Origin: Candidatus Obscuribacterales bacterium
Lineage (GTDB): Bacteria; Cyanobacteriota; Vampirovibrionia; Obscuribacterales; Obscuribacteraceae
Assembly (NCBI GenBank): GCA_021732085.1
Contig: JAKFVQ010000013.1
Coordinates: 1-64,000, forward strand
Direction: 5' to 3'
DNA: 64,000 bases
Part shown: in pieces, positions 21,727-41,851 of the stretch
Position numbering within the stretch: the stretch's first letter is position 1
Layout of the letters: each line of letters opens with the position of its first letter
Position numbers and translations under genes: made by a program
Notes under the pieces: model-generated
Seen by the model: the letters and a program-made list of their open reading frames with translations, nothing else
Database searches by the model: none
Told to the model about the DNA's origin: nothing

Positions 21727-22068
21727 AATGGCGATATGAAATTAGAAGAGTCGCTGATAAAGCCTATTAAAACTTTTAAAGCTACTCTTTGCGTTAGTTT
21801 CACTACGGGAGAGGTATAACATTCTTGACAAGGTGAAGTGTCGATGCAATTATTAATCTTGTAAGACACAACTTTTGTTTTCTCTACTTTAATTTTTTTT
21901 GTTGCCCTTTACTACTCACAATTTGAATAAATGGCTTGGAGCTGCTCCAATTTGTAGTACTCTTGCTGCTTAGAGCTTGGTCGAATCAACTTTGAATCGC
22001 CTAGTTTTACTATGCACACTTTGGTACTGGAAATCGCGAGTCTGTCCAGGCCGGGAGGAATAAGATCC
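21727..22068. promoter_or_regulatory. Intergenic regulatory region before Flp pilin
   Basis: A 342-bp AT-rich gap between divergent transcription units. It holds TTGACA at 21825-21830 without a convincing -10 partner, an 8-base T-run near 21892-21899, and the palindrome TTGGAGCTGCTCCAA at 21936-21950. The palindrome is a candidate operator about 120 bp before the pilin start. The leader ends with the strong ribosome-binding site GGGAGGAA (22053-22060). Confidence 0.4.
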
Positions 22069-22278
22069 ATGATGACCACTTTCAAAAACTTCGTATCGGA
22101 TGAGTCTGGACAAGGTATCACAGAATACGGTGCTATCCTTGCATTCGTAGCCTTGCTCGTCGCTGTAGTATTCAGCTTCGCACAAGGAACACTGACCTCT
22201 GCGATTTCGCAGTCGTTCTCGACCATCGTTATGCAGCTCAACAAACTCAACAGCGTAACCTCAACCGGTTCGACATAA
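22069..22278 (+). CDS. flp: Flp/Fap-type pilin
   Basis: A 69-residue Flp pilin, the major subunit of Tad pili used for adhesion. The ATG at 22069 is chosen over the upstream frame because GGGAGGAA lies 8 bases before it. The processing motif GQGITEY (14-20) fits cleavage after G14, with Glu at +5 and Tyr at +6. A hydrophobic helix follows (AILAFVALLVAVVFSF). A terminator stands 31 bp after the stop, so the pilin is probably a separate, highly expressed transcript. It is processed presumably by the A24 peptidase at 29866. Confidence 0.93.
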   Translation: MMTTFKNFVSDESGQGITEYGAILAFVALLVAVVFSFAQGTLTSAISQSFSTIVMQLNKLNSVTSTGST

Positions 22279-22309
22279 ACCGAGAGGCACCAGAAAAAAT
22301 ACTGGGGAC

Positions 22310-22347
22310 GAACGAGGGGGATTATTCCTCCTCGTTCGCCGCTTTTT
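22310..22347 (+). terminator. Intrinsic terminator after Flp pilin
   Basis: GAACGAGGGGG (22310-22320) pairs with CCTCCTCGTTC (22327-22337) over 11 bp with one mismatch and an ATTATT loop. A T-run follows at 22343-22347. Confidence 0.85.
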
Positions 22348-23483
22348 GCTTTTCTGGCGTGCGTTTGTCAGCTGATATCCGAATAGTCCAAAACGTCAAT
22401 TCCAAAAAGTATTTACCGCGCTGACGAACATTCAGAAGATTGAACAGGCGCCGGCTAGACCTGAATCTCGTGCAGGCTGAAAATGCGCGGAACGCCGATA
22501 TAAATTCCAAGGTTTGCTAGGCGGGGCAATTCACCGGCCTAGGGAGATGCACCGTTTTTCTCACCATGACAACGGCGGGCTGGCTTTTACTGAATGCCGC
22601 TCTGACACCGTTTTCAGCTCTTGACCTGTCTTTTCGACCTGTTGTCATGGTGAGGAAAAACTCCAAATTTCAACGGAGCTGAATTTACTCCCACCACCAA
22701 CGTAGGAAGCATTACGATTGGAGGGCTCTGAAAGAAGCATCAGGTTTCAGGCCCTGCAAGAATTTCAGGGAAGCATCAACGAATCCCACTACTTTTCTTT
22801 CTCTCTTGGCCAGTTGGGGCACGATGAGCTATTTTTTTTTACTGGTAAGCCAGGCTCTGTTGAAAACTGCAAGCCTGAGGATTGTCGTCTGGCTGATATT
22901 GATTTTGACTGAGCAGTCACGGGGCTGCTCACACTAACGGGCTGTTCTTCGTAGGTGCTGACGCGAAAACAATTTGACCAAAATCGGTGGAAAAAAATTT
23001 TGCACACAAGAGTTTTGGCGCAGCTTGCTTCTTTGCAGCTCGAGGTATTTTGTCTACTTCGAATTTACCGAAACACCAACTCGTTATCAGCCGGACGCAA
23101 TCTGCTTAGAATGCGCTTCCAATTAATTTGTTGGATGCACGTGCGTCATCCTAACATCACTAGTAGTGGCATCTTGCCAACAAGCTTTACTGATTGAAAG
23201 TAGCTTGCCATGCTGGAGATCCGTCATCTGGCGGATCGCTGTAGCCGAAGAACTCCGCCCTGAGAGGAATTGCTAAGAAAGTTACAGAGAGAATTCGAGC
23301 ATGGCTGATATACCTCTTGATTAGTCACCGTGCGCTTCGCGAGCTTTCTGGTGCATCCTCTCTTTCCAAGATGTGGGCAAGATTTCAAGGATATTGAAAG
23401 AATCATTGTCCGCGTCTCAGGAATATGCGTTAATAGTATCTGGTTAATCTTTTTCGCCGTTGTAATTAGTAAGGGGGATAGAA
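22348..23483. other. 1.1-kb gap between pilin and cpaB
   Basis: No convincing gene is visible. The gap contains copy 1 of the 106-bp inverted-repeat element (22555-22660). A short TTG-initiated frame at 22718-22912 has a possible ribosome-binding site (TAGGAAG) but no recognisable product. The ribosome-binding site of cpaB (AGTAAGGGGGA) closes the region. Confidence 0.55.
22555..22660. repeat. 106-bp inverted-repeat element, copy 1
   Basis: The left arm TTTTTCTCACCATGACAAC (22555-22573) faces its reverse complement at 22641-22660, with one extra G, across 67 bp. The same arms with the same total length recur at 41504-41609. Similarity continues outside the arms: GCCTA-n5-GATGCA before, and TCCAAA-n-GGAG-n2-GAA after. 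Confidence 0.85.
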
Positions 23484-24425
23484 ATGCGAAACCTATTCCT
23501 GAGCCTTTCAAGAATGCCTCCATTCTTGATGCTTCTGATCATTGTGGGTCTGGCCGTTACCGCGACCATGCTCTACATGCAACAATCAGATAAGGCACGG
23601 AAAGAAATCACAGACATAAAGTCCGCTCAAGAAGCGCAAGCTAGCTTGAAAGGACCAGTAGTTTACGCGACCAAGGATATTCCTGAAGGAACGGAAATTA
23701 CAGCTGACGCTTTGGAAGTCAAAGAAGAAGCACAATCGAAAATTCCTGCGCAAGCAATGACCAACCCGAGTGCCGGTGTGGGTGGCGTGGCCGCCTACCC
23801 AGTTCAAGCTGGCACGATGGTTTTCATGAACGCAGTGAAGGCTCGAGCAGTACAAGTCGGCTTTGAAGGCAAAATCAAGGAAGGATATCGCGCCGTTACT
23901 TTCGGTATCGATTCCAACTCCGGGGTTGCTGGCTTCATCGCTCCCGGCAGCCATGTCGACGTTCTCTGCATCACCGGATCGGCAGCTGACACCAAAGCAG
24001 CTCCGGTTCTCTCCGATGTTGAAGTAATCGCCGTTGGTACCACCTACCGCAAGGCACCTGGTGAGACCACTGCGACTCAAGCCAGCTCCATCACGGTGTT
24101 GGTCAACCCGGACGATGCTGAAAAACTCGTCAAGGCCGTTACTGCAGGTAAACCGTACCTGACATTGCGTAACGAAAAAGATCACCAGCCTCTGGCTACC
24201 GTGGACATCACTGCGTTGTTCCCGAAACCACCAAAGGCTGAGGATGCAGGCGATATGACGGCAAGCAGCTTGCCGCCGCCCAACCTTCCCCCACCGCCGT
24301 TGCCTGGTGCTCCGGCAGCCGCTGATGTTAACGCACCAGCTGCTCCGCCACCGCCACCGCCGATGCATGAAATCGAGCTGTGGTCTGGCAGCAAGAAAGA
24401 GGTCCTCTCAGTCCCTCAGGGCTAG
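23484..24425 (+). CDS. cpaB: Tad pilus assembly protein CpaB/RcpC
   Basis: A 313-residue protein. An N-terminal membrane anchor (MLLIIVGLAVTATMLYM) is followed by a SAF domain (about 53-120, VVYATKDIPEGTEITADALEV) and the RcpC core (YRAVTFGIDSNSGVAGFIAPGSHVDVL). The C-terminal 60 residues are Pro/Ala-rich. CpaB works in the periplasm with the secretin in Tad pilus assembly; the poly-Pro tail could span the wall or contact partners. The ATG follows AAGGGGGA. It is 78 bp before cpaE. Confidence 0.92.
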   Translation: MRNLFLSLSRMPPFLMLLIIVGLAVTATMLYMQQSDKARKEITDIKSAQEAQASLKGPVVYATKDIPEGTEITADALEVKEEAQSKIPAQAMTNPSAGVGGVAAYPVQAGTMVFMNAVKARAVQVGFEGKIKEGYRAVTFGIDSNSGVAGFIAPGSHVDVLCITGSAADTKAAPVLSDVEVIAVGTTYRKAPGETTATQASSITVLVNPDDAEKLVKAVTAGKPYLTLRNEKDHQPLATVDITALFPKPPKAEDAGDMTASSLPPPNLPPPPLPGAPAAADVNAPAAPPPPPPMHEIELWSGSKKEVLSVPQG

Positions 24426-41461: not shown

Positions 41462-41503
41462 CAGGATCGGCTAGGGTATTTTGCTCGCCTAAGTCGATGC
41501 ATC

Positions 41504-41609
41504 TTTTTCTCACCATGACAACCCTGCTGGCGCTTCAAGTCAATTGAGCAATGGTAAGGCTTTTGGGTCTCCCCTGGGGAAATCTCGGGTGTTGTCATGG
41601 TGAGAAAAA
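41504..41609. repeat. 106-bp inverted-repeat element, copy 2
   Basis: The left arm TTTTTCTCACCATGACAAC (41504-41522) faces its exact reverse complement (41591-41609). The arms match those of copy 1 at 22555-22660, the total length is the same (106 bp), while the inner 68 bp differ. Flanks GCCTA-n5-GATGCA and TCCAAA...GGAG are also shared. It lies 43 bp after the FtsB-like gene in a 444-bp gap with no other gene. Confidence 0.85.
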
Positions 41610-41851
41610 AATCCAAAAATCTAGGGGAGTCGAAGACCCTCGCTTGCACGTTGTGCTAACCGCGCGGTGATTGTTGCGGGAAGAAAACCCGTCCACCATT
41701 GATGAGCTGCAGCGAAGAAGGCTTGGCTTGGACGTGCTTAAGCGTCCGGTGTCCTTCTGGCAAATATGCAAATGTATTCTTCGTCCGGAGAATTTGGGCA
41801 AAGCTCAATCGGCCAACCATTCAGCTCCCCAGCGCTTAAAACTAGAGAAGA

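Follow-up and report, generated by a model that had tools for sequence, protein, structure and literature searches.

A dispersed family of intergenic inverted-repeat units with near-invariant arms and a spacer of constant length in a Candidatus Obscuribacterales genome

The genome of a single bacterium (G000; 4.79 Mb in 33 contigs, 70% complete) contains some 30 short non-coding units of one family, scattered between genes. Each copy is probably a non-autonomous inverted-repeat replicator, about 139 bp long, moved or copied by a DNA-binding protein supplied in trans; the best reading is that of an element which resembles REPINs in its layout and MITEs in its nature. Two copies are located in the 64,000-nucleotide stretch which was analysed as a whole, here called the window. 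The finding contributes a repeat family from a bacterial lineage that has received little study. The combination of fixed arms, a spacer constrained in length only and no covariation of the RNA type points with unusual clarity to selection on two DNA sites at a set spacing.

The arm sequence TTTTTCTCACCATGACAAC, searched in the window with up to 3 mismatches allowed, gives 4 matches, against a mean of 0.02 in shuffled sequences: the two inverted-repeat elements with shared arms and different centres, reported in the preliminary description, are therefore real. In copy 1, the left arm (22555..22573, + strand), whose 14-mer core is nearly invariant in 21 copies, is followed by a variable spacer of 67 bp (22574..22640, +), by the inverted right arm (22641..22660, -) and by the right outer conserved end CTCCAAATTTCAACGG (22661..22676, +). 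The right arm features one extra G, so that the 19-bp repeat (matched at 22641-22659) is not perfect, and contains one mismatch or inserted base. In copy 2, the left arm lies at 41504..41522 (+) and the perfectly matching right arm at 41591..41609 (-). The cores measure 105-106 bp in copy 1 and 106 bp in copy 2. The previously given extent of 106 bp holds for the core, but not for the full unit, since conservation runs for about 22 bp beyond each arm: defined by family-wide conservation, copy 1 occupies 22538..22676 (+, termini CCTAGG...CAACGG) and copy 2 occupies 41488..41626 (+, termini CCTAAG...TCTAGGG). A family model (R1) matches them at 22538-22684 (127.7 bits) and 41488-41634 (105.3 bits), respectively.

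A profile was built from 21 copies of the main type, type 1, which it recovers at E values from 1e-12 to 1e-34; it also picks up further, more diverged copies. Alignment of the 21 copies defines a unit of about 139 bp, composed of outer ends of about 22 bp, near-invariant arms of 14 bp and a spacer of 67-70 bp. Conservation reaches about 22 bp beyond the arms on the left (CCTAGGGNNGATGCACC) and about 22-24 bp on the right: on the latter side, 1.1-1.65 bits per position are found up to +24, with a weak extension, limited to sub-families, to about 40 bp, and background is reached by about +40. Mean pairwise identity is 94% for the left arm (T run included), 92% for the right arm, 51% and 67% for the outer ends and 38% for the spacer, where a single small conserved motif is present near the middle (TTT..G; TTTTCAG in copy 1). 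Spacer length varies within 3 bp across the aligned copies, and is 67-70 bp in all intact ones. A simulation at the observed substitution level, run on a star phylogeny and only indicative, gave so narrow a range in no more than 0.04% of runs once indels were set at 3% or more of the substitution rate. The arm centres are about 82 bp apart, close to 8 helical turns.

A genome-wide search for the 14-mer CTCACCATGACAAC gives 23 + 22 sites with at most one mismatch, and none for the reversed pattern used as a control. Nearly every type-1 arm has an inverted partner, and the pair measures 95-98 bp end to end, also in all 22 intact copies. With the addition of a half-inverted copy (L045) and a decayed one (L046), type 1 reaches 24 copies. 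A second type was recognised on reading the diverged profile matches, at about 9 places, several of them decayed. Type-2 arms differ from those of type 1 (CCTNNNAAAAAGGATCTTTTTCACGCCTTGGCAAC ... GTTGTCATAGCGCAAAAAGATCCTTTTTAACAGG; near CTTTTTCACGCCTTGGCAAC...GTTGTCATAGCGCAAAAAG), and form part of more extended terminal inverted repeats with the pattern CCTNNNAAAAAGGATC, which are present at both ends and run from the CCT terminus across the arm; the spacers measure about 50-67 bp. Type 1 has the same layout, except that its left and right outer ends are now different from each other: terminal inverted repeats are clear in type 2, while the inversion in type 1 is confined to the arms and does not extend to the outer 22 bp. 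The expectation of a dispersed family without coding content, located between genes and conserved at its ends and flanks but not in its centre, is borne out by the 24 copies of type 1 and the approximately 9 of type 2.

Within type 1, sub-families may be distinguished, whose similarity spans both spacer and flanks (e.g. 79.5% over 161 bp, 81.6% over 196 bp). Likeness over up to about 160-196 bp indicates that the whole unit has spread; since it covers the spacers, these are related by descent, and are not random inserts. No two copies are near-identical, the best spacer identity being 76%, which gives no indication that units moved recently: movement, if any, is not recent, or recent copies have been lost in assembly gaps. 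Genes surrounding the copies may be convergent, co-directional or divergent, and the position relative to promoters is not constant; no ORF family recurring beside the copies was found. Two copies are rearranged. In L045 (4420-4570; G000 C14:91313-91460), half of the unit is inverted in place, flanked on its two sides by a short inverted repeat, CTTATC and GATAAG; L032 (4400-4600; G000 C1:146424-146572) is a chimera with left-type outer ends on both sides, which suggests recombination between copies at the arms.

The preliminary description had proposed a search for arms and flanks in the whole genome and in relatives. Many further copies were obtained in the genome itself, but none in relatives: no match was found in 59 related genomes, three of the same genus included. 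Low-scoring model matches in G027 and G001 turned out to be unrelated sequence, and no similar repeat family was detected in 420 kb searched of G001, which belongs to the same genus. No exact arm pair is found in GTDB contigs or IMG/VR; one exact single arm, lacking partner and flanks, occurs in a Parachlamydiaceae contig, as expected by chance. No plasmid or phage match was obtained for the element. The congeneric genome G002, where CpaB is 98% identical, allowed comparison of orthologous sites: 15 flanking genes were located, and 13 intergenic sites gave usable alignment blocks, all of which skip the element. The corresponding intergenic stretches are shorter in G002 than in the genome under study by about 210-1,400 bp, a difference larger than one unit, so that a clean single-unit insertion, or empty site, is not seen.

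Several features support a replicator. The family is dispersed and intergenic; its arms are near-invariant, and vary independently of each other, while the spacer is diverged and constrained in length; a second type exists; and the matching sites of G002 lack the element. Such features are expected of a non-autonomous mobile element, as originally suggested. The protein supplied in trans would most likely be a transposase-type enzyme: it would recognise the inverted sequences at both ends, kept at a set spacing, and would move or copy the unit into intergenic DNA, the spacer acting as a passive filler, whose length, but not sequence, would count. The contrast between arms and spacer makes the family useful as bait in a search for the protein responsible.

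Against a replicator stand several negative results. Target-site duplications, indicated in the preliminary description as a test for a MITE, were not found: no direct repeat of 2-9 bp exceeds the level of shuffled pairs, at any of the boundary pairs tried, though old copies could have lost them. In the assembly, 70% complete, neither a RAYT (PF01797), nor a longer element carrying the arm pair around an ORF, nor a linked transposase was found. To these must be added the lack of near-identical copies and of a clean empty site, and the fact that transposons can usually do without a constant spacing of their ends. CCTAG-like termini, known from ISEcp1, suggested an IS1380-type parent. This candidate was rejected: no ends resembling the element were found for the sole IS1380-family transposase detected in the assembly. 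The transposase gene itself (L226 1477-2985; G000 C31) is a single intact one, with no recognisable terminal repeats.

The preliminary description also considered a structured RNA family; as a small RNA or an mRNA-processing hairpin, its stem would be formed by the paired arms. Arms do pair, and whole units fold better than shuffled sequences in several copies (z from -1.3 to -5.6), but this stems from the arms being inverted, and nothing more is needed to explain it. Pairing is found in 96.9% of the cells in type-1 copies, against 96.6% after partner shuffling, and the covariation score is at chance (0.049 against 0.043 in shuffles, 160 out of 500 of which score as high). Ten of the 17 arm pairs never vary; the sole well-populated variable pair (T/C against A/G) changes independently on the two sides, and is unpaired in 3 of 21 copies. 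Spacer folding is at the level of dinucleotide shuffles (mean z 0.08 and -0.46 for the two strands), spacer ends are not complementary (3.1 of 12 positions, against 3 expected), Rfam has no match in the window, and no promoter-like site above chance is present near copy 1. Because the arms lack covariation and the spacer lacks a fold signal, the family is not regarded as a structured RNA, a reading which appears highly unlikely. As far as can be judged from the sequence, two recognised sites would fit the evidence, and a selected RNA stem would not. An intrinsic terminator was also considered for the element, and is ruled out by the layout, in which the stem is preceded by a T run on its 5' side and followed by an A run on its 3' side.

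Chief among the alternatives is a cellular two-site DNA element, where a host protein with an architectural, looping or regulatory role would bind both arms on the same helix face, separated by about 82 bp (8 turns), at about 22 chromosomal sites. It would account for arms kept in every copy despite strongly diverged spacers, for the fixed distance between them, for their behavior as independent inverted sites and for the absence of mobility signatures such as target-site duplications. It is nevertheless unlikely: the asymmetric conserved outer ends, the sub-families extending over spacer and flanks, and the chimeric, half-inverted and decayed copies all point to a spreading unit, while the mixed gene contexts with no constant place relative to promoters, the variable type-2 spacers of about 50-67 bp, and the absence of the family from congeneric genomes do not favor it. 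Somewhat more doubtful is the idea of paired, helically phased inverted sites extending over the chromosome and kept copy by copy, by which a putative protein would loop or organise intergenic DNA, perhaps as a domesticated mobile-element system. A true REPIN family, with the RAYT tyrosine transposase encoded in the missing part of the genome, appears quite improbable. The lack of target-site duplication is compatible with an IS200/IS605-type mechanism. Invariant inverted ends, fixed distance and a freer spacer correspond to the REPIN layout in P. fluorescens (PMC3116915). Yet PF01797 gives no match, copy number is low, and a single arm, as DNA, folds at 0 to -0.6 kcal/mol, no better than shuffles, featuring no stable hairpin or REP-like palindrome. 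Moreover, REPINs are reported with a spacer hairpin and compensatory changes (PMC3116915), neither of which is found here.

A non-autonomous replicator, then, is still the preferred reading, and three groups of known repeats are close to it. REPINs are REP doublets forming hairpins, for which both spacer length and hairpin capacity matter, according to the authors (Bertels and Rainey 2011, PMC3116915). In common with the present family, they are short, extragenic and non-autonomous, and their two invariant inverted ends keep a constant distance around a spacer that is less conserved. Here, by contrast, copies are in the tens, not hundreds, and the arms are T-rich and accompanied by outer ends of about 22 bp; no RAYT was found in the 70% complete assembly, the ends are not palindromic hairpins and compensatory changes are absent, for which reasons the family is not filed as REPIN. 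Prokaryotic MITEs, such as Correia elements and ERIC (reviewed in PMC10969869), share a size of about 100-200 bp, inverted repeats at or near the ends, intergenic localization, absence of ORFs, copy number in the tens and restriction to a lineage. They differ in that, in the present family, the most strongly conserved repeat is set in from the unit's ends by about 22 bp, and the spacer, though fixed in length, has diverged much further than the arms. Target duplications and a parent insertion sequence were sought, the latter in an assembly 70% complete, and not found, so that the family is not assigned to the MITEs proper. Stem-loop repeat families of bacterial intergenic DNA (PMC2267715) are likewise dispersed, and able to fold as a long stem-loop; here, however, the fold is a by-product of two conserved inverted sites, with no sign of selected pairing.

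Copy 1 is located in a variable stretch (about 22347-23101), between an ORF for a Flp-type pilin (22012..22278, +) and the next Tad gene, cpaB/rcpC (23484..24425, +; PF16976 RcpC, E 1.2e-21). The pilin has no Pfam match at 1e-3, and is assigned to Flp by its sequence and its place beside the Tad genes. It had been proposed that this copy splits the pilin from the rest of the Tad operon, which is misleading. An intrinsic terminator, with a 13-pair stem and a T tail, directly follows the pilin gene (22309..22338, +), and a similar sequence is present after the pilin gene of G002, where the order pilin, gap, cpaB is the same and the element is absent: with its own terminator and the same gap in a genome lacking the element, the pilin gene is not separated from the operon by copy 1.

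Other repeats were observed in the surroundings of the copies. A flanking repeat (...GTCAGGGTAAGATTTTTGATGAGGCAACAGGTGTTGTCAGGCTCAGATTTTTGATGAGTCTATGCG) is present in the left flanks of L044, L047 and L032, and also at L063 and L064; 121 bp of it are identical at both ends of contig C14, and a version about 81% identical is found at C1. This repeat seems to break the assembly. Another dispersed family, with core AGACGCAGAATGCGGCGGGAGCATCCGGAGCGTTTA, occurs at no fewer than five places (400 kb of G000, L144-L163; right flank of L049). Finally, tandem arrays of 52-57 bp units adjoin some copies (L033 3848-4214; L037 3963-4228; L049 4290-4345 and 5912-5973), and the 57-bp unit is also present singly elsewhere.
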